NCBI GenBank assembly: GCA_015179045.1
Contig: WHUZ01000006.1
Coordinates: forward strand, 1,860,001-1,924,000
DNA from: Kalaharituber pfeilii
Taxonomy: Eukaryota; Ascomycota; Pezizomycetes; Pezizales; Pezizaceae
Reading direction: 5' to 3'
DNA length: 64,000 nt
This document shows, piece by piece, positions 2,997-59,911 of this stretch. Under the pieces are notes generated by a model. That model ran no database searches. It was not told the DNA's origin and saw only the letters and a list, made by a program, of their open reading frames with translations. The translations under genes and the position numbers were made by a program. Numbering within the stretch: position 1 is the stretch's first letter; every line of letters starts with the position of its first letter.

Positions 2997-3056
2997 CCCT
3001 GCCATGGCGAACAGCTGTATGCGGGGTCACGTGAAAAAAAAAAAAAAAAAAAAAAA
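2997..3056 (+). mobile_element. Hairpin-only retroinsertion, type II
   Basis: Sixty bases: CCCTGCCATGGCGAACAGC, the GCGGGGTCACGTG half of the hairpin, and about 23 A. It is flanked by the perfect 13-bp duplication ATCTTGGAGTCTG (2984-2996 and 3057-3069). No LINE coding or UTR sequence precedes the hairpin. It lies within the RNase H remnant of another LINE. Confidence 0.9.
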
Positions 3057-3080
3057 ATCTTGGAGTCTGTGACTATCAGT

Positions 3081-3727
3081 GGATGACTTCCCGTCGGCCC
3101 AGACGACCAGACCCAGACCTTATCAGTGCTCGATCTACCACAAAAAAATTTTAACCCCCTTCCAAATTTTAGATTCTGGCGGACCCCCCCCCCCCCCCCC
3201 TCCGCCAGACCCAGAATTTTTGGAAGCGCGTTCCAAATCAAGTGACTAGTAAAAACGGGGTTAGATCAGGTAACATAGCATAAAAGAAAATAAATGCTGC
3301 CAACACCAAAATTTCTGCATATCGCAAATTGATTTCTACTGCAACGCCTCAACTTATGCAGAAATTGAGCATAAAGCTGTCTTTCATTTCTTTGTTTACG
3401 TGCATTACACTTTTCAGCTTACGCGATAACAACGAAAGCAGTTTTACTTTACCTGAGGAGCTTTACTGCGAATCTAGTACAATTAGACAGAGCCTGTGCC
3501 AGTCAAAGGATTGCAAAATGTAGCATTCAAATTTACTCTTTGGAAGTAAATTTTTGGTATCGCGATATGACTAAGTGAAGCGCGAAGTTGTTCCCTGACA
3601 AATCTGAGATCTGGGAATCTGGACGTTCACGAAACTTGAATTTTGTGATTGCGACGGGAATCGGGTCTGAGACGGAATCTGGAGGTGGGGTCTGGGTCTG
3701 GTCGTCTGGGCCGACGGGAAGTCATCC
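3081..3727. mobile_element. Non-autonomous TIR transposon, 3-bp TSD (PIF/Harbinger-like)
   Basis: Inverted termini of about 38 bp begin GGATGACTTCCCGTCGGCCC at both ends, flanked by the 3-bp duplication AGT (3078-3080, 3728-3730). Removing the element and one AGT restores the RNase H frame of the host LINE. A 3-bp duplication with GG-start termini resembles PIF/Harbinger elements, but the TSD is not the usual TWA. There is no transposase; the interior includes a 20-C homopolymer near 3185. Confidence 0.8.
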
Positions 3728-4303
3728 AGTAGCTCTCCTTCTTGCTGAATGAAGAAGTAAGGAAATAAGAGATAAGTCCCGTCAAAGTCCCGTCCCTATC
3801 AATCATTTACACTATAGTCCTACACAAAAGACACCTCTACTTCCACATACCTAGGGGAACAGACCACCGTCAATGATGCAGAACTCATTGCCATGAGCGA
3901 AGCATTACGCAATCAAGCTGGAGAACTGCTAATCATAACTGACTCTAAGGTATCGATATCCAAGCTCCTAAAGATCGCCCAGGGAGAGCCCACCCACAAA
4001 GGACCGGCAAAACTGGTTAGAGACGCCTGGAAAGCCAGAACAGACCGAGGTGACTGGGACGTTGCAGTGATGTGGGTCAAGTCCCACATAGGAGTCAGAG
4101 GGAACACCGAGGCAGACACAGCTGCGAAAATAGGCACATGCCTCCCCTACCAAGATGAAACCATAACAGAAGATGGGATACGACAAACCTCGAGACATCA
4201 GCGCGCCACAGAGAGAAACCGGCTAGGGCTCAGCTACCGTCCCCTGACAAGACTTGGAAGTCAACACATAGCCACACTAGCAGGAATACTGGGTGGCAAG
4301 TTA

Positions 4304-6552
4304 GAGGGAGCTATGGTGCTCCGACCGACTATGGGGAAGCGACCGAGCAAAAAGGGAATTGTGACACAGGGGTAGTCTTAGTGATAGTCTTCTTTCTGAA
4401 GGCGACAGCCATGTAGATAGGTATACATCAACAAAATGGTGAAGTCAAAGTCAAAGTTTAAGGACCCGGAGTCAGATATGAATAGAGCAATTGATTTTGC
4501 TCGCAAAAATCCAGATGTGAAAAGATCCTCAGTTGCACATCAGTTCGGAGTGAATCAAGTGACCTTACGGCGAAGACTCAATGGTACACAAAAAGCAAGA
4601 CGCCATGCACATGTAGAGCAACAATTGCTGTCTGCAGGAGAAGAAAAATCTATTGTTGAGTGGTGTGAAATTATGGCAGATATGGGATTTCCTTGTCATA
4701 TTCCTATGTTGGAATCCATGGTGATATTGGTACTAAAGTCACGAAATGTTTCACGAATTTTTATTGGGCAACAATGGTATCAGCGCTTTTTAGCACGGCA
4801 TCCAGATATTCAATATCGTTATGTTCAATATTTGGAGCGAGCTAGAGCATCGAAATCTGCAGATGCTGCAACTCAGGCAGATTTTTATGATAAGCTTGCA
4901 AAGTTACTACGGCGATTTGGGATTCAGAAGCAAGATCTTTGGAATTGCGATGAGAAAGGAAATACAGTTGGAGTTATGGCAGGGCGGAGAAAAGCAATTG
5001 TACGAGCAGGCAAAAGACAACCACAAGCAGTTGGAGAGGGCAATCGGGATTTTGTTACAGTATTAGAAACTGTTAATGCGGCTGGTGATGTTTTGCCTCC
5101 ATTTGTGGTATGGTCAGCAGGGTCACATCGTGATGGATATTATGGACGTGGGGGTGTTCATAATGAGGCTGCATCATTTGCTTATAGTCCCAATGGCTAT
5201 ATGGATGATGAATTAGGTCTACAATATATGATCAGTCATTTCGATAAGCTCACTCGAAGATCACCTCCACCCGGCAGTCTTTATCCAGATCGCATCCCAT
5301 CTCGCTGCTTAATTGTTGATGGACATAGTTCGCATATCCATTACAGTGTTGTAGACTATGCATTAAAGAATAATATTCATATGCTATGTCTTCCGCCACA
5401 TTCTACACACCTTATGCAACCGCTTGATGTTGGCTTATTCTCTCCACTTCAGACTGCTTATGATAATCAACTTCGAGATTGGATATACTACAATCCTACC
5501 AAGATTCTCCGCAAATCTGACTTCTGGGTTCTCCTTAGTGCTGCACGGAAGCTTACCTATACTAAAGGGAACATTATTTCATCTTGGGAGGCAAGTGGTT
5601 GTTTTCCTGTCAATGCTGATAGGATTACTACCGAACAGTTCTTATCTGAGGTGCAACCTTCCCCAGAAATACCGCCATCACCTCAACAACTCAAAACTCT
5701 CCATCAACAAGTCCGAGCAACCTTAAATACACCTACTCAGCTTCAGTTGCTGGATCAATATCACGAATTTGCTGAGCAGAAACTCCAGAAGTACCGGACT
5801 ATTGAGCCTAACAACAAAGTGCTACAAAACTTCCGACATGGCAAAGTGTCGGAACCCACCTCACTCAGAGTCATTAATGGAGGCAGAGTGTTAGATCGCG
5901 ACTATGTAATCAAGGAGCAGGCTCGAATTACTGAAGTTCAGAAGAAGGAAGAAGAGAAGGCTGCACGCAAACAAGCAAGAGAACTTGCAAAGGCACAAAA
6001 ACTTATCAGCAACTCTACTATCACTAGCCAAGCTACACTTACCACTTCTGGGACTGCCACTCAACATCTAGTTGGATCACCGGTATGGCATATTGAAGTT
6101 GGATACCTTGCTCCAGCAGAACAATACCAGATGTATCGGGAACTTCAATTTTTCCAGTACACAATAGGTACAAAATCTCCATTCCATAGTACCCCTATCT
6201 CTTATTTATATTGCCTTGTCATTCCTATGCCCTTTAACTAACATTTCCAGGTCCGGGTGGTGTAGGCTATGACCAAAAAGTGTAGGTGGTGGGCGTTGGT
6301 TAAGCTGGGGGGGGGGATTGTAGGACTGCGCTATGTTTTGCTCAATTTCTTTCTCTAATATACCTGTATTTTAATTATTAGACTTTTTTTTCTATTGTCG
6401 CTAGGTCATATTCACTTAACTTCATTTTTATTTCCACCCGCAAGGCATGGTTGTTGTGCTGTTCAATGTTGCGTTGAGGTGCGGGGATCACAAATTTGGC
6501 CAAATTTGGTCGGTCGCTTCTCCATAGTCGGTCGGAGCACCATAGCTCCCTC
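4304..6552 (+). mobile_element. Complete pogo-like DNA transposon
   Basis: The element is 2249 bp, with inverted termini of about 43 bp that begin GAGGGAGCTATGGTGCTCCG, and a TA duplication at 4302-4303 and 6553-6554. It encodes one transposase with all three catalytic aspartates. Intact termini, an intact coding frame and a perfect TA duplication suggest a recent insertion that could still be active. These termini differ from the CAGTCTACCCTTGCTATACC family elsewhere in the window, so it is not the partner of those short elements. Confidence 0.95.
4436..6285 (+). CDS. Pogo/Tigger-family DDD transposase
   Basis: Cut-and-paste transposase. Residues 15-55 form the psq-type helix-turn-helix (SSVAHQFGVNQVTLRRRL); 60-125 are a CENP-B-type DNA-binding region. 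The catalytic DDE-superfamily core has D172 (NCDEKG), D295 (LIVDGHSSH) and D331 (PPHSTHLMQPLDVG), i.e. the DDD form typical of pogo. The first frame runs to 6241, but a good intron (donor GTACAA at 6168, CTAAC, acceptor AG at 6250) would join it to a short last exon ending at 6285 and give 588 aa. The C-terminal part (about 460-560) is charged and coiled-coil-like. Confidence 0.93.
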
Positions 6553-6870
6553 TACTACGGAAATGGCAGTACGAAATCGGGAAAGCAGACAGCCCAGAAT
6601 GTCGATGGTGCGGGGGGAGGAGGAGGAGACTACTGAACATGTGCTCACTAGGTGCAGGACATGGAAACGAAAGTGGCCAGGGGGCATGCAAGACTTGGTC
6701 ACTCCTCCGAAGAGCAAGGACACAGACCCACTAAGAGACATCTTGGAGTGGGCAGGGGCATAGGAGACACACAGAATCTTTTATTATTCCTTTTCTTCTA
6801 CCTTCATATGTATCTAATCTCATGTAACTAATCTCGCCATAGCCCCCAGGGCGGCACGCGAGTAATGATA

Positions 6871-8838: not shown

Positions 8839-9559
8839 TACGTTGCAAATTTGATATGATTGATCGGCATGACAAGGACTAAAAGTAGTGAAACTAGTGC
8901 ATCGAATTTAGCGAAGTTTCACCCGCCCAATAGATACCAATCTCCGAAAGCCACATGGAGGTATAAGTATTAACCCTGCTAACCCCGCCATAGCCTACCA
9001 GGCGGCACGCGAGTAATGGTACAGTCTACCCTTGCTATACCGGACCTCGCGAAACAGGAAACCTTGCTATACCAGATGGCCTCTGGCTGCAACATCCGTT
9101 CCCCATACAAATCGCCCTTGCTATCCTAACAATTCCGGACCGGACAGAAACCTCCAGACAAGTACCCCCCTGTCTCCATACAAATAATATTTGCTATACC
9201 GGACGCGCTAATACTAATACATCTTAGACTACTCCATTTCACACTTGGCTGCCACCACTGCTGTCACTGCTTCTGAATGCCGTTGCTACTACTGCTACCA
9301 TCACTTGCTACAATGTTGTTCGAGTAATGGAAACTGGGCACTTCGTTGCTTCTTGTCAAAATACCTGACTAAGTAGATACAGCTACTGGTCAGCTTAAAA
9401 TAATAAATTAGATACCTTGGATATCAAAGTTAAGTTAAAGTACAGTAATCTTACCAATTCATCTCAAAGATGTTTATCAAATTCATTCAACTTTTCTCCA
9501 GCATATTTTGGTTCTAGTCAATGTTTACATATTTGATGCTTCTCAAGCACACTCAAGGC

Positions 9560-10887
9560 AGCTGCAAGCATTAAAGAAGGCAGCTGGAGGGGGAGAGGCA
9601 CAGGGGTAGAGGGGGTGAACGCAGTGTGCGGAGTGGAGGGGGCGGAGGTGATCCTGGACGCAGCACAGGCAAGGGCGATGGTTCGGGAAGTGGAGGTACC
9701 ATCGGAGCTTGCAGAACTATGCACAGGAGATTTCAGGAGAGGGAATGAGGAGAAGGAGGAGGGGACGAGGAACTGGAAGGACTGGGGGGTGCAGTGGGCC
9801 CTGGAAGAGGGGGATGGATATGAAAGCGTTTTGGACCGCTGGCAGGGGCAGTGGTCAAGGTTCTCGGAGGAGGGCGAGGAGATCTCATGGGGAGGAGAGT
9901 GTGAGAAGGTGAAAGTGGAGTGCGCAGAGAGGCTAGGTAGAAAGGGGGAGGGAGAGAAGAGTGGGAGACCTCGGTTGAGGAAGCCGGAAGAGGGAGAGCG
10001 GTTCTCTTCTCGGATGGTAGTAAGGTCGAGGACAGCAAGGTGGGGGCGGGGGTGTGGGGGAGATCAGCGGTGGTGGCGGAGGTAGTAGGGAGAACGGCGA
10101 CGGTTTTTGACGGGGAGGTGAGAGGGGTGAGAAGGGCGCTGGAGAGTGTACCGGAAGAGGTACCGGTCCTGGTTTGCTTAGATTCTGAAGCTGCTGTCAT
10201 GGCGATTCAGAAGGCAGGCAGGGAGGGAAAGGGAAAGACGGAGGATGTGAGAAGGGTGGTGAATGCAGTGGCGAGGAGAAAGAAGAAGGGGGGGATGCGA
10301 AACTGTTGTGGGTAAAAGCTCATATCGGAATCGCAGGCAACGAGAAGGCGGATGAGTGGGCAAAGAAGGGGACGGTGATGCAGGGAAAGGAGGTGGCCAC
10401 CGGAAGCGGGGTGCGCCAGAGGGTGAAGGCGTGGAGGAAGGAGAAGAGAGAAGTGGAGGGCTTTGGAGGAGGAAAGGTCATGGAGTGGAGTAGGATGGCG
10501 ACATCAAACTTCACTGCATTGCGACTGGAGCGAGGAAGGTGTGCTAGGTGGTTGAAGAAGCTAGGGGTGGCGGAATCGGATAGGTGCAGGTGTGGGGAGG
10601 TGCAAACGGGGGAGCATCTCGCTTTCCGATGCAGAAGTCAGGAGAACCGCCCAGAAGGTTTTGAGAGGTGGAGCGACATGGGAAAGGATTGGAAAAGAAA
10701 GGCGGAGAATGGGTAGGAGTATGACGTTTTAGAGAATTTCTTCGCTGGGGTCAAGTTCTAGAAGCTAGGAGAGCGGGGGCGATGGCGCGTGGGGGCCACG
10801 TATGTAGAGAGTTAGTATAGCCTGTCTCCGGGCTATGAGGGCTTGCCCAGGGACCCTGCCATGGCCACGTGCTACAAGCGGGGTTAT

Positions 10888-10916
<29 letters not shown>
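9560..10916 (+). mobile_element. 5'-truncated LINE-C with RNase H, type II tail
   Basis: AAGCACACTCAAGGC flanks the insert at 9545-9559 and 10917-10931, and the site occurs once, uninterrupted, in copy 2 (about 46576). The coding part shows a LINE RNase H: SDGSK near 10012, CLDSEAAVMAIQKA, then WVKAHIGIAGNEKADEWAKKG. It ends with a CRCGEVQTGEHLAFRC zinc-knuckle-like motif. At least two frameshifts (near 10010 and 10310) break the frame. The tail is ACCCTGCCATGGCCACGTGC...GCGGGGTTATGTG plus poly(A). Confidence 0.92.
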
Positions 10917-10918
<2 letters not shown>

Positions 10919-11022
10919 GCACACTCAAGGCCCGACATTTTTCTAGATTTCATGACTGATGCATATTGATGTCTTTGGCTGGGTGTGAAACAAGTTGATG
11001 TTTACTTCGTTCATCTCCTATT

Positions 11023-11390
11023 CAAAGGTCATAAAGGAATCCCAGGCAACACCGAAGCAGATCGAGCAGCCAAGGTTGGCACAGCTGACACCCCGGAATG
11101 CCGGTGGTGCGGCGAGGCTGAAGAAACGACCCTTCACATATTGTCTCAATGTAGAGTCTGGAAGCAGAGATGCCCAAGGGGTGAGGATGGATTGTGCAGA
11201 CCCTTGGGTGACCAAGATGAAGGGGAGGGCCTTCGGGGAGTGATAGGAATTTTGGAATGGCCGAGGGGTTAGCCCCGGGGGATTTACTTCTATTTTTCCG
11301 TACTTGTACTTCGTTTTGATGTAACTAGACCTCGCCATAGCCCATAGGGCGGCACGCGAGTATTGATATAAAAAAAAAACAAAAAAAAAA
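11023..11390 (+). mobile_element. Short LINE-A copy with internal deletion, type I tail
   Basis: Flanked by ATCTCCTATT (11013-11022, 11391-11400). It encodes the RNase H end (GIPGNTEADRAAKVGTAD) fused directly to the CRWCGEAEETTLHILSQC motif, and ends in the type I hairpin. The copy in the duplicated segment (from 46681) still has about 190 bp between these two blocks. The deletion ends fall in near-identical GGTNGG(TA)CACAGCTG repeats, which explains how it arose. Confidence 0.88.
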
Positions 11391-11647
11391 ATCTCCTATT
11401 TCAGTAATTATTTGAATTTACAAAATTTTATCACCCCCCCTGTCTGCCAAGCATTTTATTCTATACCGGAATCTTGCTATACCGGACGAAAAGTACCAGA
11501 TTTTAGGGATCCGGTATAGCAAGGGTAGACTGTATAAAAAAAAAAAACAATTAACCCTGTTAGAGTCTGTGAGTGAACTTGACGGGGGATGGATGGTGAA
11601 ATTCGCGATTTATTGTAATTAAGTCAGTGTAGTTAAGATAAACCTCG

Positions 11648-12157
11648 TCTGCCATGGCGAACAGCTACCGTATTAACTCACATAAGAGCAAGAAAACAAA
11701 CGCGCGCTAGTTCGGTCTTGGCAGGACTCAGGCGCCATCACTCGCGCTAGCGCGCTCTCCGTGCAATCTTGGCATTACTAAGCACGGCTAATGTCCAGCT
11801 TCTCTACTCTGTAACGGAGGTAGTAAGCGCAGAGATTACCAGGCCAAAAAGACACTTGACTAGTGATACTCGCTAATTCTCTATGTAGCTCCTATAGCCA
11901 TTGTGCGACTGCGACGCATTTGCGCATTTGCGCATTACGTTTTTCGCATTTCCTTCATAATATCAATCTCCGTGGTGTTGAGGTTAGCATCGCGGTAATT
12001 CGGGGATCATTACGTGCCCGTGCGTGATACACGCGCACTGGCACTGAGAGGTCTGACAAGACCCAACTAGCGCGCGTTTGTTTTCTTGCTTTTATGTGAG
12101 TTAATACGGTACAAGCGGGGTCACGTGAAATAAAAAAAAAGAAAAAAAAAAAAAAAA
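11648..12157 (+). mobile_element. Hairpin-only retroinsertion, type II, carrying a MITE in its loop
   Basis: The perfect duplication AGATAAACCTCG (11636-11647, 12158-12169) encloses TCTGCCATGGCGAACAGC... and CAAGCGGGGTCACGTG plus an A-rich tail. The two hairpin halves are separated by a 442-bp MITE. The uninterrupted site exists in copy 2 near 48161. Confidence 0.92.
11668..12109. mobile_element. 442-bp mariner-type MITE
   Basis: Inverted termini CCGTATTAACTCACATAA, extended imperfectly through CAAGAAAACAAACGCGCGC, with TA duplication at 11666-11667 and 12110-12111. No coding capacity. It sits in the loop of a hairpin-only insertion, so that insertion must be older. Confidence 0.9.
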
Positions 12158-12720
12158 AGATAAACCTCGCCATAGCCTTACAGGCGGCATGCGAGTAATA
12201 TTAAAAAAAAAAAAAAAAAAAAAAAATAGAGTCTGTGACGTTGGTTTTTCAATAAGAAATCATAATGAGAGGTGATATATGATACCCTACTCGAAGTGGA
12301 CTACTCGAATAGGACTACTCGAATAGGACTACTTCATTTGCTCAGTAGTCAGATGGCATCGTAGTCTACCCAAACTGAGCCTTGTGTGGCACAGTAGTGT
12401 CTAAACCTAGGCGCATGTGGCACAGCGGTGGCCCAACGCCCGAATCGGCTGATCAATATATTTGCTTCACACTGGAATGGGCGATTGTACAACGATTACC
12501 CAACTTGCAGATGATAGCAGGTACCTATAACAACCTAAGTGTCATCTGACCCCCACACGGGATGGGTAAGGTAGAAGTAATCAAAGCAAGGGAAGCAATT
12601 AAGGGGATGGGATATTGAAAACATCGAATTTCTAGGTACCCTGCTTGACCTTTTAGCTCTGATGGTCGAGGTTAGTTACCAACGGCTTTACAAACAATGG
12701 CGGCAGCATCAGTTTAGGAT

Positions 12721-12728
12721 TATAAAAT
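12721..12728 (+). promoter_or_regulatory. Probable TATA box of the secreted-protein gene, copy 1
   Basis: TATAAAAT lies 205 bp upstream of the spliced start codon (12926), followed by pyrimidine-rich sequence typical of fungal leaders. The same element is conserved in copy 2 (about 48723). The 78-codon frame covering this region is identical in both copies, but this is expected from the duplication and probably not a gene. Confidence 0.5.
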
Positions 12729-12925
12729 ACCAAAGATCTCCCTCAATTCCTTCCTGCCTCCCGAAGCCAGCTTCAATAACAGCAGCCCCCTTCTCACTCT
12801 CATCAAGCTCCTTTTACAACGCAACGCTGCGCAAGAGAACCGCCTACCTTTCGGCTGCCAGACTACGGTGGACTATATCCTCGTTTGCGTTCCTCTAGCA
12901 CATTTGAGAAGCATTTTGGGTCAAT

Positions 12926-13757
12926 ATGAAGAGTATGTTCAATGACACGAGGTCGTAATATTTTACCATTTGACCATGTGATGACTAACTTTTATGGCAT
13001 AGTCCTCGACGCCGCAACTCTGCTGGTTTCTCTAGTAGCAGGCCTGACGAATGCTTTGCCAACACCTAATGAAGTGAACAATTTCGGCCCCTCAGGTGTT
13101 AGCGCTGTCGATGACACTCGCATTAAACATGTTCTTGACGTGATGGAGGCCGATACTGGGCCCCTGAACTGGAAAACGTTCAATGACAGTGGAGCTCTCC
13201 TCACGATCCCGACTGACGAGTGGGACAAGTACGCAAATTTAGCGGGTATCATGTCTGACATTCAGACTGTTGAAGAAAGGGCTGCAGAGGCCACTTACTC
13301 GTCGCAGGTTGAAACTCGCGATATTCTTCGTCGTGCTACATTGTTTGAAGTCCCGGGAGGTATAAATGGTCACATAGCCTGGGGGCAATGCTATGATCCA
13401 GGCACTTGGGCCCATGATGAACAGATTTCAAGATTCATCCCTTGGGCATGTTGGGCCTTCGAGGTTCAGGGTGTACTTAATACGCTGGGGACCACTGGGG
13501 TGGTTAAGTTTGGAAATATGAAAAACGCAGCTGGTGATATGTTTTCTGTATATTTTCATTGGGGATATAATGGGTTCCTGCACTTTACAGTTGCTGATTG
13601 TAATGTAATCCTGAACCTGTTGGTGAATAATTACTGTCAGGGGAGTGACAGGGATACTCGTGGTGGAAGAATTGTGATTAATACAGGAGTCGTTGGCGGC
13701 CCGTCGTGGCTTAGTGCATTGGTCGTAGACGCAGAACCACGAGCATCTTCTATATAG
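12926..13757 (+). CDS. Secreted prepro-protein, copy 1 (3' end replaced by an insertion)
   Basis: Two exons are proposed: ATGAAGA (12926-12932), a 70-nt intron (GTATGT donor, TGACTAAC branch, TAG acceptor at 13002), then 13003-13757. Splicing creates an otherwise absent signal peptide (MKILDAATLLVSLVAG...TNA, cleavage near residue 20). A propeptide of about 90 residues ends at the dibasic RR (112-113), a Kex2-type site, leaving a C-terminal domain with four cysteines (about 132, 152, 202, 214). The DC...L...C...GG pattern vaguely recalls fungal effector-like domains, but I cannot assign a family. A 1.33-kb repeat inserted at about 13747 replaces the last codons found in copy 2. Role unknown; effector, defence or mating roles are only guesses. 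Confidence 0.75.
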
Positions 13758-21341: not shown

Positions 21342-23606
21342 TTCCTTCCAAGAGTCCTGAATGTCCAGGGTGAGGCGGCTGGATACAAGTATTTTCACTG
21401 AACAGTTTGAATTCATGACGGAAATGAGGGCTTTTAGGAGAAAACGGCGCACATCCTCAGGGCACTCATCTAGTGCATCTAGTATTTTTTTTTTTTTTTT
21501 TTTCACGTGACCCCGCATGCGGCTGTTCGCCAAGGCAGTGGATCTAGTATGATGACTGGATGTTGATAGCACCTGAGTAGATTTATGATGAGCTCAATGC
21601 TCATTGTTGCAGGCAGTTGCAGGCGGGTGCTTGCGTGCAGAAGGATCTTGCTCTTGCTTTTCGTAGGCCTCTATTGCGGGTTTGCAAATGATCCCATTCA
21701 TAGGGCATGCAAGCTGTTTAACAAGAGAAAGTAAAATTTTATCTCTATCATGACAGTCCTGTTCATCTCGCTTGCAATAGAAAAATGCAACCTTATCAGC
21801 CTTTGCCTGGAGGTAATCGATACCCGCTGACCTGGGAAAATCAGTAATTGCCTTCCAACAACTAGTTTCAACATTTGGATGCATCAAAGATATTGTTACT
21901 TACATGAGTTTTGTTTTACCCGCACCAGCTGAGAAACGGAATATCAGCTACTCTGCAAAAGTACTATAGGAGCAGGATGCAGGCGGCCTTACGAATCCCA
22001 TGTAACCATAATATCGATGAATTCTCTGCTTGCCACCAATCACAAAACTCCGTTCTCCAAAATAGCCATTTTCCAGTCGCATCAACACGCCCCTCCTGTG
22101 CAACGTCATGATGGTTTTGGTATGGGACCTTCGAGAACCATCTGAGGACTTTTTTTCTTTCACTTTTTAGAAAAGCACGTTAGACTCTGACCGTTAATAT
22201 TCATCCACCCCTGGTAGGTCACAGGGGGTAGCACGGTGTGGTAAAGCTTACCCTCAATGATCTTGCACATCGCAGTTGTGATGGAAGCAATTCTTCCAAT
22301 AATCGGCTCAAAGCCTTTCACAAGTTCTTTCAGAGCATTGAACTCCTCTAAGCATCAGTTAGCAAGAATAGGGCTAGTGATCAATATGTAGTGGAGGAAG
22401 GCTATCTGACTCTGATTGACTGTTCTTGCGATCCCGTGATCTGGGTTAATGTCAGTTTTCTGTTGAGTTGTCCGCAGTACTGATACTTGAAGGGTCTTAT
22501 TTCTTACAGCACTTCTCCACCACATCAGCCGCTACACCCAATGCCAATTCTGGCTTATCAAGCAAGCACATTTTCTCCAACACCTGTCCCGGATTTTTCA
22601 AGTCTTCTAGAGTGCGTTTCCCTAGTTCCAGTGATTTCACATTAGATTCTCTGTGACCTGCTGTATGCTGTGTGGACGATATTAGTGAGCATCCCTACCA
22701 AAACTGTTAGCTGCTTCCGCTGTTGGAACCACCTCCGAAGTGAGGTATAATTATTCGTATACTGCACAACGGCTTACTAGCATGCTTACCCGCTCCACAC
22801 CAACAATAGCAGCTGCCATGTTCTGCTCCCCGTTGATGAAAATCTGTGTAGGCCCGTATGCATTAGTTGAAGGTTTCAGGTGAGCATGATGAGATAGATA
22901 GCGAGGGTTAATCAAAGGCAGAGTGTACAAAGAGGGGTATAAGGGGGAGGATGCGGAGTATGCTGGATAATATCACTGGGAATGCAGGAATCAAACCGTC
23001 AAGATAAATCGTACTCCCGTCCATGGCAAGGCAGTGTGTACAGGATCAAATTGTGTCGCTACATCTCCTACATGCTTGAACTTTTCAATCCAGCCTGTTA
23101 TTGCTTCTGCCTTTTCACGGACATCTATTTCCCTCTGCCCCCATTTCAGCTTCCAACGTTTTTCTTCACATTTTGCCTGGGCCTCCCTGGCAGTCTTCAG
23201 AAGCTCTTCCGAAAATTCCCTTTTTCCAGAAATGGTCTTGACTTCTATCCCTGCTTTCTCCAACAGACTCCTTTGCTCTGTGGGAAGACCTTCAAATACT
23301 TTTGCCCATAGATCCTTTGATACCCCCCATTCATTGCCTTTGCCGCCAAAATGTACCCAGCTTCTGATCGTCACCTTTCGCATTAGGGTTATTTCCTTGA
23401 CTACCATCTCGTTTGATAGGTTGATTTGTGTCATTTTCACAGGTGCCAGCCAGTTCATCCCCAAGCTGCTCTGTTGGTTCTGCTACAATTCTGGCGTCTG
23501 GGTTCGGATTTGGAGAATTATTTTGCAAGCTTGGTTTGAATCCAAACACACCAAGCAATCTGTCTCGCTTGCGGGGTCTCGCCTTAGAGGTATTATGACC
23601 CTCCAT
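21342..23606 (-). pseudogene. Broken NACHT/STAND (NLR-like) gene
   Basis: Minus-strand remnant of a fungal STAND protein. The N-terminal region is at 23606-22991 (WIEKFKHVGDVATQFDPVHTA, LPWTGVRFILT), then short exons (INGEQNMAAAIVG near 22820; EEFNALKELVKGFEPIIG near 22310). A frame with HHDV...ATGKWLFWRTEFCDWW near 22060 reaches WLHGI, which splices over a 64-nt intron (21929-21992) to PGAGKTKLM, an intact Walker A. The next exon (from 21831) has VAFFYCKRDEQD. Walker B (VIILDALDEC) is cut by a hairpin-only insertion at 21486-21541, a +1 shift lies near 21620, and the gene ends after LVSSRLTLDIQ, so effector and repeat domains are lost. Start chosen at the ATG at 23606; exons upstream of Walker A are approximate. 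Confidence 0.8.
21486..21541 (-). mobile_element. Hairpin-only retroinsertion, type II, in a Walker B motif
   Basis: Fifty-six bases (minus strand: ACTGCCTTGGCGAACAGC, GCGGGGTCACGTG, poly(A)) between ATCTAGTAT duplications (21477-21485, 21542-21550). Removing it rejoins the NACHT Walker B segment in frame. No other LINE sequence is included. Confidence 0.9.
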
Positions 23607-26394: not shown

Positions 26395-28761
26395 TTTTTT
26401 TTTTTTTTTTTTTTAAATCACATAACCCCGCTTGTAGCACTTGGCCATGGCAGGGTCCCTGGGCAAGCCCTCATAGCCCGGAGACAGGCTAAACTAACTC
26501 TCTACATACATGGCCCCCACGCGCCGTCGCCCCCGCTCTCCTAGCTTCTAGAACTTGACCCCGCATTCTCCTACCTTCTAGAACTTGACCCTGGAAAAGA
26601 AATTCTCTAAAATATCATACTCCTCTCCATCCTCCGCCTTTCTCTTCGTCCCTCTCTTCTGTCCCCTCCGTTCCATACGGTACCGGCTTCGCATGTACCG
26701 TCCTCAGCATCCTCTTCCACAGCTTCTTCCCCCTTACCACTGTCCAGTTCTCCCCCTCAATCCTCTTCTCCGCCTCCTTTGCCGCCTTCTCCTCCTCCTC
26801 CTTCAGCTTCCTCTCCTTCTCCTCCAGGGCTGCCACCTCCTCCTGTGATCCCGCCGGCATCTCCATCACCTCTGCCACCTTACTCAGCACCTGTGCTCTC
26901 TCCACCGCCTTCCTCCGCTCCTCCGCTACCCTCTTCTTGCTCTCCTCCTCTGCTTTTCTCCACCTTTCCTCCTCCCTCTTCTTTCTCTTCTCCGTCTCCT
27001 CCTGGAGCTTCCGGATCTCCCGAATCTCTGCTTCTCTTTTTCTCCTCTTCTCCTCCTCCCTTTTCTCTTCCTCCCTCTTCTTCTTCTCCCTCTCCAGTGC
27101 CCTTTCCTCCTTCACCGATGCCAGTCCCATCGCTGCATGTATCTCCAGGACCATTCCCTCCAGCTTCCCCATTCTTTTCTCCATATCACTCTCCCTAGTC
27201 TCTTCCCACTCCTTTCGACCTCTTTCACCCCCTCTCTCCATTCCTTTATCTCCCTCCCCGTCATCTTCGCCCTCCTCCTATATTCCAACACCCTCTCCCC
27301 TTCCCCCCCCTTCTCCTTCAGTGCCTTCCACCCTTTTTCAAAGGCAGCTTCCCCCAAAGTTGCCGTCACCCATACCCATGCTGCCCCCAGCCTCTTCGCC
27401 TCTCTTTCCTTCCCTTCTTTCCTCAGCTTGTCCACTCTCCCATCCAGCACCTGTGCCGCATGCACGAGCGCTAGCACCTCTTTCTCCTCCCTCCCCACCC
27501 CTTCTTCGTCCTCCTTCTCTTCCTCATTCTCCCCCATCTCCTCATCGTCCTCTTCCTCCTTTCCCCTCTCAGCTCCACCTACCTTTTCTTTCTCTTCTCC
27601 TCGTTCCTCCACCCTAGCTAGCACCGGCGCTGCTGCCGGCGCCTCTGCCACCGGCCCAACGCCCAGCTGTGAATCTCCGATCTCCCATTCCCCCCCGCTC
27701 CTATCCCTGAATCCTTCCCTCCTTCCTCCCCTTCCCTCGCATGGAGACCTGCTCCTGCTGCCTCCCCTCTCCCTCCTCCTTCCCCAGCTCATCATCACTC
27801 TCGTGACCCTAGGAACCCGTTGCTGCTTCTGGAAAACCACTAACGGTCCCCTCTTGACTGTGATACACTCCCTTGTCGCGTTCTTTAGAACTTCTGTCTC
27901 CCTTTCTACCACGATTCCATCCTCCCCCTCCACATACCTCCGGAACATCGCCGCATCCTCACTCCAGAGCTTTACGACCCTTGCTACCTCCGCGATCCCT
28001 GTGAGCTCCTCCGTCTTCACCCACTCCACCTCCTCTACTCCCCTCCTCGCTGCTGCCTCTACTGCCTCCTTTCTAATCTCTTCGATCATATCCAACTTCC
28101 CATCATATTCTCCCCCCTTTCTGTATGCCCTCTGTACTCTTTCTTTCACCGTAATCATATCCTCCCCCTCTCCCAGCCTCGCCAGCCACCAATCCTTCCT
28201 TTCCCATGTGTGGATAGCGTCTATCCCCCACACTGTATTCCTGTCCATTACATATACCTCCCCTGTCCATCCCTCTCCTACCGGTCCCAAGAACTGCATC
28301 TTTGGTACTTCCTCCTCCACCGACATCCTGCTCCCTGACTTCCTTAACTTCTCGTGACCTTCGCTTAGTCCTGCCTTTTCTGGCTGTGCGCCGCTTCAAT
28401 CCTAGCTCTTGTTGCTAAGACTGAAAAGGGAAGGCCGCTGCTCGTTGCTCGTTTGCGCTATTACTGTTCTTGGTCGCCCGTTCTGCAGCCGATCAGCCGA
28501 TCTCCGAAGCGATCGCGCGATCCTAGGTGCGGGTCCCTGCCTCTCGAGATTTGTGTGGGAATTCTCTGAAAAACTTCAGAAAACTTGGCCTTGACGAAAC
28601 GAGTCCTAAACTTCTGAATTCTGTAAATCAAATGAGGTATTCTTCCTTAGGCGGTCCTGAGCTTCGCTTTGATATAACTTTCACGTTCTGGAGGCGCCGG
28701 GAAGTTGGAGTTCTTCCAAGCGCTCGTTCTGAAAAAGTTGTTGTCGGTGTTGCCCTCGATA
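26395..28761 (-). mobile_element. LINE-C derivative with ORF1 but no ORF2
   Basis: Flanked by TTGTAAGTAA (26384-26393 and 28762-28771). On the minus strand: a 5' leader (28761 to about 28400), ORF1 (from 28326), and then directly the LINE-C 3' end found at 10650-10916 (GGTCAAGTTCTAGAAG..., type II tail, poly(A)). ORF2 is absent. The leader recurs at about 44803-45145 in another deletion derivative, so the 5' end is the true LINE start. Insertion duplications show that the deleted form itself was retrotransposed. Confidence 0.88.
26615..28326 (-). pseudogene. LINE-C ORF1 (coiled-coil, gag-like), frameshifted
   Basis: The frame starts MSVEEEVPKMQFLG at 28326 and runs to 27112, then continues in another phase (27241 to 26615) to GGGWRGV. 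A globular N-terminal part (about 1-165) is followed by an SR-rich patch (GGSRSRSPCEGR) and a very long Glu/Lys/Arg-rich segment expected to form a coiled coil. I see no CCHC knuckle. LINE ORF1 proteins bind element RNA; that role is inferred from position. The plus-strand Ser/Pro-rich frames over the same bases are shadows. Confidence 0.7.
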
Positions 28762-39308: not shown

Positions 39309-39376
39309 GCCCTGCCATGGCGAACAGCTACAAGCGGGGTCACGTGAAAAAAAACAAAAAAAAAAAAAAAAAAAAA
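39309..39376 (+). mobile_element. Hairpin-only retroinsertion, type II
   Basis: Sixty-eight bases: GCCCTGCCATGGCGAACAGC, CAAGCGGGGTCACGTG and an A-rich tail, between perfect ACCTTTGCATTGT duplications (39296-39308, 39377-39389). R1 copy 1 (about 14030) has the uninterrupted site. Confidence 0.96.
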
Positions 39377-43497: not shown

Positions 43498-43529
<32 letters not shown>

Positions 43530-43572
43530 CACGTGACCCCGCTTGTAGCTGTTCGCCATGGCAGGGCAGGGG
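43498..43572 (-). mobile_element. Hairpin-only retroinsertion, type II, in frame in exon 1
   Basis: Poly(T), CACGTGACCCCGCTTGTAGC and GTTCGCCATGGCAGGGCA between GGAAGACTC duplications (43489-43497, 43573-43581). Net gain is 84 bp, so the host exon stays open and gains 28 residues including a long lysine run. Confidence 0.92.
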
Positions 43573-44802: not shown

Positions 44803-45587
44803 GAGGGCATTTTCCAATGTTTCACCGACAACAACTTTTTCAGAACGAGCGCTTGGAAGAACTCCAACTTCCCGGCGCCTCCAGAACGTGAAAGTTATAT
44901 CAAAGCGAAGCTCAGGACCGCCTGAGAAAGAATACCTCATTTGATTTACAGAATTCAGAAGTTTAGGACTCGTTTCGTCAAGGTCAAGTTTTCTGATGTT
45001 TTTCAGAGAATTCCCACACAAATCTCGAGAGGCAGGGACCCGCACCTAGGATCGCGCGATCGCTTCTGAGATCGGCTGATCGGCTGCAGAAGGGGCGACC
45101 AAGAACAGTAATAGCGCAAACGAGCAACAAGCAGCGACCTTCCCTTTTCTGTGGGGGAGTGAGATCGGGTGGAGAGGCCAGAAGGAGTGGAAGAAGGAGA
45201 TGGAGCGATTACAGCGGGGTGGCGGAATCGGATAGGTGCAGGTGTGGGAGGTGCAAACGGGGGAGCATCTCGATGCAGAAGTCAGGAGAACCGCCCAGAA
45301 GGTTTCGAGAGGTGGAGCGACATGGGAAAGGATTGGAAGAGAAAGGCGGAGGATGGAGAGGAGTATGATATTTTAGAGAATTTCTTTTCCAGGGTCAAGT
45401 TCTAGAAGGTAGGAGAATGCGGGGTCAAGTTCTAGAAGCTAGGAGAGCGGGGGCGACGGCGCGTGGGGGCCATGTACGTAGAGAGTTAGTTTAGCCTGTC
45501 TCCGGGCTATGAGGGCTTGCCCAGGGACCCTGCCATGGCCAAGTGCTACAAGCGGGGTTATGTGATTAAAAAAAAAAAAAAAAAAAA
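44803..45587 (+). mobile_element. LINE-C deletion derivative: 5' leader joined to 3' tail
   Basis: 44803-45145 is the LINE-C leader (inverted match to 28420-28759). It is followed directly by the C-terminal ORF2 remnant (VAESDRCRCG, then truncated), the GGTCAAGTTCTAGAAG 3' UTR and the type II tail with poly(A) at 45568-45587. ORF1 and nearly all of ORF2 are missing. No matching target duplication was found, so the left boundary is approximate. Confidence 0.8.
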
Positions 45588-48096: not shown

Positions 48097-48228
48097 GGGA
48101 ACTTGACGGGGGATGGATGGTGAAATTCGCGATTTATTGTAATTAAGTCAGTGTAGTTAAGATAAACCTCGCCATAGCCTTACAGGCGGCATGCGAGTAA
48201 TGATATTAAAAAAAAAAAAAAAAAAAAA
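48097..48228 (+). mobile_element. LINE 3'-UTR insertion (type I), uninterrupted copy
   Basis: Counterpart of 11573-12226 without the nested hairpin insertion and MITE. Flanks are TAGAGTCTGTGA (48085-48096) and TAGACTCTGTGA (48229-48240). Confidence 0.85.
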
Positions 48229-48927
48229 TAGACTCTGTGACGTTGGTTTTTCAATAAGAAATCATAATGAGAGGTGATATATGATACCCTACTCGAAGTG
48301 GACTGCTCGAATAGGACTACTCGAATAGGACTACTTCATTTGCTCAGTAGTCAGATGGCATCGTAGTCTACCCAAACTGAGCCTTGTGTGGCACAGTAGT
48401 GTCTGAGTCTAGGCGCATGTGGCACAGCGGTGGCCGAACGCCCGAATCGGCTGATCAATATATTTGCTTCACACTGGAATGGGCGATTGTACAACGATTA
48501 CCCAACTTGCAGATGATAGCAGGTACCTATAACAACCTAAGTGTCATCCGACCCCCACACGGGATGGTTAAGGTAGAAGTAATCAAAGCAAGGGAAGCAA
48601 TTAAGGGGATGGGATATTGAAAACATCGAATTTCTAGGTACCCTGCTTCACCTTTTAGCTCTGATGGTCGAGGTTAGTTACCAACGGCTTTACAAACAAT
48701 GGCGGCAGCATCAGTTTAGGATTATAAAATACCAAAGATCTCCCTCAATTCCTTCCTGCCTCCCGAAGCCAGCTTCAATAACAGCAGCCCCCTTCTCACT
48801 CTCATCAAGCTCCTTTTACAACGCAACGCTGCGCAAGAGAACCGCCTACCTTTCGGCTGCCAGACTACGGTGGACTATATCCTCGTTTGCGTTCCTCTAG
48901 CACATTTGAGAAGCATTTTAAGTCAAT

Positions 48928-49765
48928 ATGAAGAGTATGTTCAATGACACGAGGTCGTAATATTTTACCATTTGACCATGTGATGACTAACTTTTATGGC
49001 ATAGTCCTCGACGCCGCAACTCTGCTGGTTTCTCTAGTAGCAGGCGTGACGAATGCTTTGCCAACACCTAATGAAGTGAACAATTTCGGCCCCTCAGGTG
49101 TTAGCGCTGTCGATGACACTCGCATTAAACATGTTCTTGACGTGATGGAGGCCGATACTGGGCCCCTGAACTGGAAAACGCTCAATGACAGTGGAGCTCT
49201 CCTCACGATCCCGACTGACGAGTGGGACAAGTACGCAAATTTAGCTGGTATCATGTCTGACATTCAGACTGTTGAAGAAAGGGCTGCAGAGGCCACTTAC
49301 TCGTCGCAGGTTGAAACTCGCGATATTCTTCGTCGTGATACAGTGTTTGAAGTCCCGGGAGGTATAAATGGTCACATAGCCCATGGGGTGTGCTATGATT
49401 CAGGCTCTTTGGCCCATTATGATCAGATTTCAAGATTCATCCCTTGGGCATGTGCGGCCTTCGAGGTTCAGGGTGTACTTAATACGCGGGGTATCAATGG
49501 GGTGGCTAAGTTAGGAAATATGAAAGACGCAGCTGGTGATATGTTTTATGTATATTTTCTTTGGAGATATAATGGGTTCCTGCACTTTACAGTTGCTGAT
49601 TGTAATGTATTGCTGAAACGGTTGGTGAATAACTACTGTCAGGGGAGTGACAGGTATACTCGTGGTGGAAGAATTATGGTTAATACAGGAGTCGTTGGCG
49701 GCCCGTTCTGGCTTGATGCAGTGGTCGTAGGCGCAGACCCACAAGCATTTAAGTGTGACTGTTAG
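48928..49765 (+). CDS. Secreted prepro-protein, copy 2 (intact)
   Basis: Same two-exon structure as copy 1: exon 1 at 48928-48934, a 70-nt intron to 49004, exon 2 at 49005-49765; 255 aa. The signal peptide ends near residue 20 (VTNA), the propeptide runs to RR at 112-113, then a C-terminal region of about 142 residues with four cysteines shared with copy 1 plus a CxC-type end. The first 112 residues differ from copy 1 at two positions, but the part after RR differs at about thirty, nearly all by nonsynonymous changes. That suggests diversifying selection on the processed product. A TATA box lies near 48723. Family not recognised; not claimed to be a toxin. Confidence 0.82.
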
Positions 49766-56133: not shown

Positions 56134-56147
56134 ATACAAAAGGAAGA

Positions 56148-56656: not shown

Positions 56657-57066
56657 GTACGTGATTAGCAGATTGATGTTGTAACAACATTAGGGGAGGG
56701 TCGGGACCAAATCATAAATACAGGAACCAGCAGCAGGAAGTCCTTTTGCTTCTAAATACTAGTGTTACATGCCCCAGGAAAAATCTTACTAGTAGTGTGT
56801 TCACTACTTTCTTTAATGGAGAATCAAGTGGATAAATGTTTGGCCTTGGGCATAAAGACAGTTGCATTAACGAGCGCAAACATTCAGGAGGACCCATCTA
56901 TTATTGCAAAGGTGAAGCTGGTTGTTTCGAAATTGTCTATATGCTATCGGAGTTTGCCAGCCTGAATAATAAAACGTTCATGAGTATTACGCAGGCAAGA
57001 CAGTTTAAAGAAGCTCTTGTAAGCATCGTGGTTGATGAGGGGCATTTAGTACATGCATGGTAAGAG
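56657..57066 (+). pseudogene. RecQ-type helicase fragment
   Basis: Reads through QIDVVTTLGEG, a degenerate Walker A region (TSSRKSFCF), a TAA stop, then LHAPGKILLVVCSLLSLMENQ (motif Ia), LGIKTVALTSANIQED, a frameshift near 56910, FASLNNKTFMSITQARQFKEAL and IVVDEGHLVHAW (motif II, DEGH for DEAH). RecQ helicases unwind DNA using ATP; this copy is dead and cut off by LINE-B about 70 bp downstream, probably within an intron starting at 57062. Confidence 0.72.
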
Positions 57067-57138
57067 CTCCTTCTCTATATATCGATTAACATACACTAAG
57101 TGGAAAGCTAAAAGGCGAATATTTCGTCCAAAGTAGCG

Positions 57139-58016
57139 CCACCTTCTGTAGCCTGACTGTCTTACCTCATGGCTCCGGCTCCTTCTTCGCTTTATCTGCC
57201 CTTTCATTGCCCTCTATTCCGATATGTGCCTTCACGCATAGGTCCCTCATCCTCTGCCTCCTCTCTGCAATCAGTTCCATCACACGTATCAGGTCCGCAG
57301 TCTTCGCTTTGCCTGTTCTCCCTGCACTTCTGACTGCACTGATTGCTGCTGTGGAGTCCGTGAGTAGCAGCACCTTTGCCCTATTGTCAGGCAGACAGAG
57401 CAGCCAAGATAGGCGCACTACTCCCCTACCAGATCACGGAGGCCGGGATGTGCACCGAGGCGAGAGCCCGACGAGCGGAGGAAAGAAACAGTCTGGGAAT
57501 AAGTTACAGGCCTCTGCAGCGGTTAAGCGGATTGACAGCCACCTTAGCAGGACTGCTGAAGGGCAAAGGTCTCAGAGCATAAAAACTCAAAGTCGACAAA
57601 GCGGAAAGCCCGGAGTGCCGATGGTGTAGAGAAGGGGAAGAATCGGCAGCACACATCTGGGATGAGTGCAGGGTGTGGAGTCAGAGATGGCCAGCGTGTC
57701 GGGAGGTGGTGAGAGAACCACCAAGAGCGAAGAGGAGGAGAGAGACCCGCTGGCGGCCATGCTAGGATGGGCGGGGAGGGAGTAGGAGTCGAATGTATTT
57801 CCGAAGGGGAAGGTCATCTCATTGTCCTATATCCTATATTCCTGTGATTTGTCAATGTGGATTCTATTTAGCTAGTTATCTCCTATGTGCCTTTTATCTC
57901 GCCATAGCCTATAAGGCGGCATGCGAGTAATGATAAAAAAAAAAAAAAAAAGAATTTGCCCTATTGTCAACAGCCTCCAGGGCTCCTTTGATCCCAACAA
58001 CCTCTCCGCCCCGTAC
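57139..58016 (-). mobile_element. LINE-B copy 2 (antisense), split by the same LINE as copy 1
   Basis: Homologous to 19050-19990, with the same nested insertion at the same base. The minus strand encodes KVLLLTDSTAAISAVRSAG and CVKAHIGIEGNERADKA (RNase H). The right end is cut by the Gypsy LTR at 58017. Confidence 0.88.
57390..57954 (+). mobile_element. 5'-truncated LINE (type I tail) nested in LINE-B copy 2
   Basis: TTTGCCCTATTGTCA duplications at 57375-57389 and 57955-57969; same site as 19320-19883. The ORF2 frame is broken (stop after GKGLRA), so this copy has decayed more than its partner. Confidence 0.92.
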
Positions 58017-58520
58017 TGTAACGGCGGACGTGGTCTGGGGCCCGTGGATGACGGCGATCTACGGAGCGCAGGCAGGAGGCGGCAGGCGGCAGTTCAGCAG
58101 TTCGCGGGTTCAACGGTTCACAGCGGTACAGCAGTTCAGCGGATCGGCACAGCAGGTAACCACTCTACTTAGTAGAAACTAAATACAAGAGGTTGCGTAA
58201 AGAGAAAAAGGAAAGGAGAACACACAGCCATGAACACCACTTATATACACTTTCGAGACTGCAATACGCACTCAGGTCACATCCCTTTTACCCATATATA
58301 TTGTACCGACATCCTGAAATGCTTGTCAGAGGTCATCTTTTGGCATGAAGCTATCATCCTGAAATGCTTGTCAGAGGTCATCTTTTAGCGTGAAGCTATC
58401 ATCCTGAAATGCTTGTCAGAGGTCATCTTTTAGCGTGAAGCTATCATCCCGAAATGCTTGTCAGAGGTCATCTTTTAGCGTGAAAATATTTACCCGGCTC
58501 GCTATAAATATCCCGTTACA
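58017..58520 (-). repeat. 3' LTR of Ty3/Gypsy element 1
   Basis: On the minus strand the LTR starts TGTAACGGGATATT, directly after a polypurine tract (AGGAGGGGAATAG), and ends CCGTTACA at 58017, so both ends carry TGTAACGG in inverted form; 504 bp. A TATATAAG promoter-like box lies at about 58241-58248. Four 45-bp tandem units (ATCCTGAAATGCTTGTCAGA...) occupy 58311-58492. Confidence 0.85.
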
Positions 58521-58569
58521 CTATTCCCCTCCTAGGCCGAGCTCCTGCGAGGCTCAGTTGTTACTGCTG

Positions 58570-59739
58570 CTATGGTCCAGGTTTGTCTGGGTATTGCTGA
58601 TGGAACTTGTGAACAGCATCGAGGTGGCTCATTCCCTTTGAATGTTGCCAGTCAGGCTGCTCGTAACCTAGCCATTTAACAAGATACTGGAGTTGTCTGC
58701 GATATATCCTTGAGTCCAGGATCTCTTCAACATGGTAATATTCCTCTTCATCAACAATAATTGGTGGAGGTGCAGGAATGTGTTGCCCGGGGTATGGATC
58801 ACTAGCTGCAAGATCTAGTAAGGAAACATGAAAGACATTGTGGACTTGCATAGTAGTAGGAAGCTCGATTCGGTAGGCATATGGAGAGATTTTCTGCAGA
58901 ATTTTGAAGGGTCCAAGGCGGCGGTGGTCTAATTTTCGGGAGGGACGTCGAGTAGTAATATTCTTCGCATTTAGCCACACTATGTCCCCTGGCTGGAAGT
59001 CTGGAGCAGGAAGGCGGTGTGCATCTGCATTTTCCTGGTATCTGTGTTGGGCCCTACGCATTTCAGCTCGTAAGTGGTCAACAGTTGCTTTAAGAGCTTC
59101 GGCATGACTAGACGCAGTTTGTACATCCTTATCTCGATGTGGTCCTTTGGCTGGTTGAAGTTCTTCAGTCCAGTATGGGTCAAATGCGTAATTGGCAAAG
59201 AATGGGGAGATGCCTGTAGTTTCCGATGCATTATTATTGGCTGCAAACTCAGCGAGAGGTAGCCACTCTGCCCAATCGTCCTGAAGGTAGTTCACAAAGG
59301 CTCGAAGGTACTGTTCCATAACTGCATTGACTCGTTCTGTTTGGCCATCAGTTTCAGGGTGGTATGCAGTAGAAAGCTTAAGTTTGACTCCCCATCGAGA
59401 TGTCAGCGCATTCCAAAAGAGTGAGGTGAATTGTGTACCACGGTCGCTGATGATTGTCTTGGGTAATCCATGGATTTTTGCCACATGCGTCACGTATAGT
59501 CTAGCAAGTTCTTCTGCAGTAACAGTATCTCGACAGGGTATTAAGTGCCGCATTTTCGTTAATCGGTCCACCACAACAAGTATTGCATTACTCCCCTCAG
59601 ACCAGGGTAGACCCACAACAAAATCGAGAGATATATCTTGCCAGGGCTTCTCAGGGACTGGTGTAAGAGGACAGATAGTATAGATCACTACCGCCTGTGA
59701 GAGACCGGGAGAGTGAGAGCTGGCGGAACGAACGTACAA
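58570..59739 (-). CDS. Ty3/Gypsy integrase with chromodomain (5'-truncated pol)
   Basis: About 380 aa of integrase: catalytic D, D and E in LDFVVGLPW, ISDRGTQFTS and ETDGQTERVN. Then the GPF module (PGDIVWLNAKNI, RRLGPFKILQKISPYAYRI, VHNVFHVSLL) and a C-terminal chromodomain (EEYYHVEEILDSR, YLVKWLGYEQPDWQ) ending HQQYPDKPGP. Chromodomain integrases steer insertion to heterochromatin. The zinc-binding HHCC, RT and gag are missing because the element is cut at about 59700. No in-frame stop in what remains. Confidence 0.93.
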   Translation of the reverse strand: MYVRSASSHSPGLSQAVVIYTICPLTPVPEKPWQDISLDFVVGLPWSEGSNAILVVVDRLTKMRHLIPCRDTVTAEELARLYVTHVAKIHGLPKTIISDRGTQFTSLFWNALTSRWGVKLKLSTAYHPETDGQTERVNAVMEQYLRAFVNYLQDDWAEWLPLAEFAANNNASETTGISPFFANYAFDPYWTEELQPAKGPHRDKDVQTASSHAEALKATVDHLRAEMRRAQHRYQENADAHRLPAPDFQPGDIVWLNAKNITTRRPSRKLDHRRLGPFKILQKISPYAYRIELPTTMQVHNVFHVSLLDLAASDPYPGQHIPAPPPIIVDEEEYYHVEEILDSRIYRRQLQYLVKWLGYEQPDWQHSKGMSHLDAVHKFHQQYPDKPGP

Positions 59740-59831
59740 CTGATAGTGCGAGCGGGTGCGAGAGAAGATTGCTTGATTGATTGATGATTACTAGCTAACG
59801 CTCCGTAACCATACAAATATATAACCCATAC
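59740..59831. other. Short spacer, possible LTR debris
   Basis: Follows the integrase truncation point. Weakly similar to 32360-32500; nothing definite. Confidence 0.3.
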
Positions 59832-59844
59832 ATCCCATCACGTG

Positions 59845-59879
59845 ACCCTGCCATGGCCAAGTGCTACAAGCGGGGTTAT

Positions 59880-59911
<32 letters not shown>
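59845..59911 (+). mobile_element. Hairpin-only retroinsertion, type II (LINE-C variant)
   Basis: ACCCTGCCATGGCCAAGTGC, TACAAGCGGGGTTATGTG and poly(A) between perfect ATCCCATCACGTG duplications (59832-59844, 59912-59924). The loop (CCAAGTGC) is that of LINE-C, unlike the CGAACAGC loop of the other copies, yet the insertion starts at the same position. Confidence 0.95.

Follow-up and report, generated by a model that had tools for sequence, protein, structure and literature searches.

Truncation of long interspersed nuclear elements (LINEs) at the 5' end is usually ascribed to poor processivity of the reverse transcriptase (RT) or to host repair. Ordinary 5'-truncated LINEs (L1, Tad-like elements) carry poly(A), target site duplications (TSDs) and the LINE 3' end and have an RT-bearing parent in the genome, and the same is true of the insertions described here from a 64,000-nucleotide stretch of Kalaharituber pfeilii DNA (contig WHUZ01000006.1, positions 1,860,001 to 1,924,000, hereafter the window). 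The starts of ordinary truncated copies are scattered, whereas those of the copies described here are quantised at the feet of two stem-loops in the LINE 3' region, hairpins A and B.

The closest precedent is the fungal MGL/MINE system of Magnaporthe, which shares with the present copies a LINE origin, non-random breakpoints and predicted hairpins nearby; there, 33 chimeras gave 28 different sites, marked by a GCC*A/U motif, and the MGL parts, of 230-5461 nt, are fused to a second RNA (PMC2104539). That system involves RT jumping, whereas in K. pfeilii no fusion was seen, the fixed sites number two or three and the stubs are ~39 or 75 nt. Short interspersed nuclear elements (SINEs) with LINE tails, such as the Mg-SINE mentioned in the same sections (PMC2104539), are likewise non-autonomous with a LINE-shared 3' end and a fixed 5' end, but in the present copies no separate head or promoter was found and the whole body is LINE hairpin. 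Human SVA also has some preferred truncation positions, its 127 truncated copies being spread over regions with 'some potential hotspots', although the cited sections state no link to stems (PMC10681720). In the corresponding part of a study of 3'-truncated snRNA pseudogenes, ends are grouped at single-stranded segments (PMC4476161). Human L1 retrotransposition falls on loss of XRN1 or DCP2, for which the authors cite altered RNA 3' ends and ribonucleoprotein particles, and the cited sections describe no stub insertion (PMC11014359). A search of the open-access literature, with most subscription journals outside it, found no report of LINE truncation quantised at stem feet or of 40-nt LINE-tail retroposons.

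Insertions that start at hairpin A

Eight intervals of the window consist of a terminal LINE hairpin plus poly(A), as the first-pass annotation of this DNA had proposed with one of them (2616-2690) rated only probable, and all eight proved to be bounded by TSDs. These measured 13-14 bp with 0-2 mismatches, which corrects the 9-13 bp given originally; exact 13-bp TSDs were present at four of the eight loci (2997, 11648, 39309 and 59845) and the other four had 1-2 mismatches. The 11648 insertion also has a paralogous empty site. Insertions comprising hairpin A plus poly(A) are termed class A and those comprising hairpins B, A' and A plus poly(A) class B. Tails were of type I (pattern CCCTGCCATGGCGAACAGC-5-GCGGGGTCACGTGA), type II (CCCTGCCATGGCCAAGTGC-5-GCGGGGTTATGTGA) or two further types, III and IV.

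2616..2690, + strand: class A, diverged type I-like tail plus poly(A); TSD AATTCTGATCATAT/AATTCCGATCACAT, 2 mismatches
2997..3056, + strand: class A, type I; TSD ATCTTGGAGTCTG, 13 bp exact
8982..11549, + strand: class A, type IV (CCCCGCCATAGCC...GCGAG); TSD ATTAACCCTGCTA/ATTAACCCTGTTA; interrupted at TA by a nested DNA element (2515 bp)
11648..12157, + strand: class A, type I; exact TSD AAGATAAACCTCG; interrupted at TA by a 446-bp MITE-like (miniature inverted-repeat transposable element-like) element
48112..48171, + strand: paralogous empty site for the 11648 insertion; same 60-bp 5' flank, continuous without insert
21486..21541, - strand: class A, type I; TSD 14 bp, 1 mismatch
39309..39376, + strand: class A, type I; TSD ACCTTTGCATTGT, 13 bp exact
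43498..43572, - strand: class A, type I; TSD 13 bp, 1 mismatch
59845..59911, + strand: class A, type II; TSD ATCCCATCACGTG, 13 bp exact

Search patterns were counted across the whole genome (78.0 Mb, 360 contigs). Exact cores numbered 678 for type I and 334 for type II, and reversed-pattern controls gave 0 matches for both types. The exact parental CAGGG was found upstream in 131 type I copies, by a pattern that is looser on the right arm and misses mutated upstream bases, and parental GGG was found upstream in 160 type II copies, where the loop was fixed as TACAA so that a few are missed. The next LINE bases are absent from ~80% of type I and ~50% of type II cores, leaving an estimated ~547 type I and ~174 type II exact-core copies without exact parental upstream bases (mutated parental bases being counted as lacking).

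Start points were located for 108 sampled type I/II copies, picked regardless of their 5' flank, with TSDs called by local, mismatch-tolerant matching and an A run of at least 5 required. The sample derived from 264 kb of contiguous sequence including the window, which was scanned for tails, and from 80 further fetched loci (40 type I loci out of the 100 listed, largely following the list but skipping 11, and 40 type II loci taken by following their list). These sources gave 31 and 85 right-arm matches, respectively, and eight of the 116 were removed as having no type I/II left arm: four type III tails, the type III-like match at 251721, whose left arm is not clear, the 11648 copy with its nested element, a palindromic chance match and a type III copy at locus L042.

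The TSD placed the start at A, within ~4 bases, in 71 of the 108 copies (42 type I, 28 type II and one other), with TSD lengths of 10-18 bp (mode 13) and a TSD match extending 1-4 bases into the insert in 7 of the 71. Five more copies lacked both parental upstream sequence and a convincing TSD and probably also start at A, and the remaining 32 run on into LINE sequence with B present in every one. None of the 108 sampled type I/II copies started between A and B. Most sampled type I copies measure ~39 nt plus poly(A), and poly(A) was present in the listed copies. The modal start is base -1, immediately before CCCTGC, which is G in type I and A in type II (20 copies each). This base can pair with the U that follows GCGGGG, so that the start corresponds to the first base of a 7-bp stem (ACCCUGC/GCGGGGU or GCCCUGC/GCGGGGU). 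At 11 of the 42 type I class A junctions extra bases precede G(-1), and 9 of these 11 differ from the parental G at the next base; an extra junction base is rare in type II (~1/28 class A junctions).

As the genome-wide core patterns demand a left arm, starts inside the stem could be hidden from them. In the right-arm-only scan of the 264 kb, however, at most one of the 31 matches (251721) could represent a start inside hairpin A, or else a diverged copy; the same 31 include one chance palindromic match and one copy split by a nested element. Chance was considered as a cause of the fixed boundary and ruled out by the absence of reversed-pattern matches together with a rough binomial estimate under uniform starts (~1e-104, from typed counts of 71, 8 and 1 and a 6-nt interval).

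Hairpin B, longer copies and the parent LINE

The foot of hairpin B is a second fixed start site, in both type I and type II. TSDs supported a start there in 9 of the 32 longer sampled copies (4 type I and 5 type II), one of which lies in the window:

2231..2328 (about), - strand: class B, start at the foot of B; TSD ATGTTTACTCTC/ATGTTTCCTCTC, 1 mismatch; poly(A) end counted by hand

Among the first 100 exact type II matches listed with A' to A, 94 hold the whole of B and 59 hold the 17 nt past B (Fisher p ~6e-8). Of the 35 copies lost beyond B, 26 were fetched: in 22 of them a TSD of 11-15 bp marks a start at the B foot, one begins 7 nt farther upstream and three were long or could not be assigned. 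Five more of the 35 had previously been TSD-verified at B, bringing the starts at B to 27 of the 35 lost there, or 27/94 among the type II matches listed. Exact rows were used instead of counts allowing up to 3 mismatches (497, 317 and 200), since the latter blend subfamily divergence with truncation. Six copies were lost between A' and B, two of which appear as one-mismatch long copies. The other four were fetched: in L128 a 16-bp TSD puts the start at the A' edge, and L125 may start there too; L126 has a changed stretch after B and L127 is a mutated long copy. Starts at the weak hairpin A' thus amount to one or two per 100 of the type II matches listed.

Longer copies had scattered starts supported by TSDs, their distances to the right arm being 205, 262, 439, 654 and 1318 nt; one copy (245551) gave no convincing TSD, and one was full length, with 7057 nt from its 5' end to the right arm and a 14-bp TSD. 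The start-point distribution is one of spikes plus a scattered background. The LINE 5' motif, at up to 3 mismatches, was found 78 times in the genome and its control once. A type II copy of ~7.06 kb gave zf-CCHC, RVT_1 and RNase_H matches in broken frames, and a type III LINE copy gave RVT_1 and RNase_H matches; from its CCHC/RT/RNase H domain layout we take the parent to be a candidate member of the Tad-like (Tad/I-like) LINEs. With TSDs, 3' poly(A) and an RT-bearing parent all found, the insertions have the sequence hallmarks of LINE-mobilised products of target-primed reverse transcription (TPRT). Three longer type II copies lie in the window:

26418..28749 (approximate ends), - strand: long type II LINE copy, internally deleted; distance from 5'-end motif to right arm 2318 nt, against ~7057 at full length
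44823..45587 (approximate ends), + strand: long type II LINE copy, internally deleted; distance from 5'-end motif to right arm 729 nt; no convincing TSD
9560..10915 (approximate ends), + strand: type II LINE copy with ordinary scattered truncation, distance from start to right arm 1318 nt; TSD AAGCACACTCAAGGC; within the element nested in 8982-11549

The first two, at ~2.3 kb and 0.75 kb compared with 7.06 kb, are possible non-autonomous derivatives.

The type III tail has at least one stem-start copy, in L042. The type IV tail (CTCGCCATAGCCC..GGGCGGCACGCGAG) is distinct in sequence and similar in layout. Its 41 matches in the 264 kb were reduced to 39 analysed copies by dropping two for want of a left arm. 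Six had clear-TSD stem starts, ten had scattered starts (87-1612 nt), two of which have a common TSD and are probably duplicates, and 23 were without clear assignment; the 8982 insertion in the window is one further type IV stem start. Type IV tails (41) outnumber type I-III right arms (31) in the 264 kb, and the resolved ones are mostly longer inserts.

Two proposals of the first-pass annotation, that starts lie near the hairpin base and that the boundary is not random, are upheld by the 71 sampled copies starting at A and by the genome-wide pattern search with TSD-bounded starts, which gave spikes at A and B and not a smooth distribution. Hairpin A was correctly identified as a fixed boundary but is not the sole one, given the second boundary at B and the longer scattered copies. 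Similarly, three tail variants had been said to behave alike: types I and II do share the spike at A, but the 8982-11549 insertion carries a fourth, distinct tail with a smaller spike (6/39).

Some tiny elements lie in or close to one another: in L106 a class B insert lies within the complement of another B, and in L062, L046 and L054 they abut or lie at most ~130 bp apart. The 446-bp MITE-like element (11666-12111, TACCGTATTAACTC...GAGTTAATACGGTA, both TA counted) interrupts hairpin A of the 11648 insertion. The DNA element at 9020-11534 has ends CAGTCTACCCTTGC/GCAAGGGTAGACTG, lies at TA in the type IV tail and itself carries the truncated type II LINE copy. The stretches ~11588-13757 and 48112-49765 are similar, with alike open reading frames (ORFs) at 12930 and 48932 and a common flank at 11588 and 48112, which suggests a segmental duplication as the source of the empty site. 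The ORFs of the window have the look of a filamentous fungus, and one of five that were tested matched Pfam (DDE_1/Tc5-type transposase). The ORF at 58570-59787 (- strand) reads by eye like a Gypsy-type integrase whose C-terminus resembles a chromodomain, and the 59845 insertion is ~60 bp from it.

Predicted folds and the origin of the fixed starts

Three hairpins are predicted in the LINE 3' untranslated region (UTR), in the order 5'-B-A'-A-poly(A). B is UAGCCUG-UCUC-CGGGCUA or AAGCCUG-CCUC-CGGGCUU with a 7-bp stem, and A' is GGG-CUUG-CCC or GGGU-CUAG-ACCC. In isolation, B elements of 76-79 nt from both types fold into three separate hairpins. Predicted stabilities of the isolated hairpins are -13.6 to -17 kcal/mol for A (types I and II), -7.8 and -8.5 for B and -3.6 and -4.9 for A', and boundary usage tracks these values (A > B, and B far > A'). 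Base pairing is conserved across B-A'-A: over 15 distinct sequences 97% of cells are paired, compared with 30-47% when slid, 14 cells vary on both sides, and 0/500 shuffles reach the covariation score. For hairpin A alone (28 sequences) 90% of cells are paired, compared with 37-59% when slid. Antisense RNA folds less well than sense in types I-III, and the pairing of G(-1) in type I depends on a G.U wobble, available only in RNA. The three-hairpin fold may form in the full-length RNA, though longer-context predicted folds do not always contain it.

Starting from the quantised starts, the TSDs and poly(A), the conserved B-A'-A pairing and the loop variants that tiny insertions have in common with LINE copies, we put it at about an even chance that the templates were LINE RNAs with their 5' ends at the foot of stable 3' UTR stem-loops. 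The LINE RNA would be decapped and trimmed, most simply 5'->3' by a nuclease, and trimming would halt at the foot of a strong stem, probably one bound and protected by RT: most often at A, less often at B and rarely at the weak A'. The bound RT would then insert the RNA stub via ordinary TPRT, copying until it runs off the 5' end of the RNA, at times with the addition of untemplated bases. An RNA already cut back to the stem is favoured because copies end after the whole stem has been copied, because of the type I junction bases and because usage follows stability, while TSDs and poly(A) indicate ordinary LINE insertion.

A number of observations weigh against templates trimmed in this way. 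The RNA 5' ends are deduced from DNA. Untemplated addition is not general, being seen at only ~1/28 type II junctions; base addition is also within reach of a stalled RT, and the ends of a TSD can be placed only to within a base or two. A 5'->3' exonuclease may be able to pass an unprotected 7-bp stem, so that protection has to be assumed. Two further covariation measures for B-A'-A, pairs with two-sided change (3; 154/500 shuffles) and pair types (10; 500/500), were not above shuffles, and hairpin A alone was without two-sided change, its scores being reached by 151 and 62 of 500 shuffles. The minimum-energy folds of the type II locus L087 at 166 and 260 nt retain A and lose B, the 166-nt fold of the type I locus L058 retains neither, and a 91-nt type I fold retains A with its surroundings altered. 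For type IV the spike is smaller and the antisense fold is about as stable as the sense.

The main rival to trimmed templates is dissociation of the enzyme, in which RT, perhaps binding the 3' hairpins, copies a full-length LINE RNA and releases or resolves after copying the whole stem; this is a real possibility, though not a probable one. Starts fixed at stem feet are also expected here, and in longer L087 folds a helix adjoins, or nearly adjoins, the A foot on its upstream side. A fungal precedent is available in MGL, whose template switches recur at certain sites that have strong predicted hairpins just upstream of them (PMC2104539), but the MGL motif GCC*A/U is absent from the present boundaries (AGGG|GCCC and AGGG|ACCC). 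A structural stall would moreover be expected at the downstream (3') foot or within the stem, not past a copied stem, and at most 1/31 right-arm matches could start inside A. The 94-nt type II fold leaves the 12 nt upstream of B unpaired. Both the untemplated bases at type I junctions and the location of starts on the upstream side of a wholly copied stem fit the 5' end of a template somewhat better.

An improbable alternative is that independent tiny retroposons are involved, short genes producing hairpin-A and hairpin-B RNAs that are mobilised by the LINE in trans in the manner of SINEs, which the fixed 5' ends and high copy number do resemble. The 39-nt body is, however, LINE tail only. No tRNA was found in the window by ARAGORN and no Rfam family at the gathering threshold (0 matches each), and no Pol III-type (RNA polymerase III-type) head was found, arguing against a SINE origin, which was rejected on the tRNA and Rfam results. 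The five common loops (TACAA, TGCAA, TGCAC, TGCAT and CGCAT) all recur with parental upstream sequence; a rare loop, TACAT (1 of 100 rows of the type I listing), was not among the 100 listed of the 131 copies with parental upstream bases. This scheme would also require a separate gene for hairpin A in each of four tail types and for hairpin B in each of two. The recurrence of loop variants in parental-flanked copies and the presence of both boundaries in two families make separate tiny genes unlikely.

Trimming at the DNA level, with the cDNA 3' end chewed back to a cDNA hairpin foot before second-strand joining, would likewise put junctions at stem feet, and in type IV the cDNA and sense strands fold equally well, but it is very improbable, as with DNA parameters the type I and II cDNA strands reach -2.1 to -4.9 kcal/mol in other shapes (sense only -4.7 to -6.5) and the type I G(-1).U pair becomes a C.A mismatch in cDNA, yet starts fall mostly at G(-1).

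The first-pass annotation had offered two mechanisms, of which independent tiny RNAs are disfavoured by the loop variants and by the B boundary in types I and II, while an RT stop at the stem stays as a rival to trimmed templates; overall its interpretation is partly supported.

Implications for LINE truncation

The cause of frequent LINE 5' truncation is an old question, and in K. pfeilii the truncation points can be placed with close to single-base precision. Because two families each have two boundaries, and other families serve as replicates, template-side and enzyme-side causes become separable, and the ~39-nt retroposons form a class abundant enough to count. More tentatively, trimmed LINE RNA stubs protected by RT at stem-loops may be a major retrotransposition substrate, with truncation fixed before reverse transcription. 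If so, host decay of LINE RNA would spare insertion and would yield hundreds of inserts of 40-75 nt plus poly(A).

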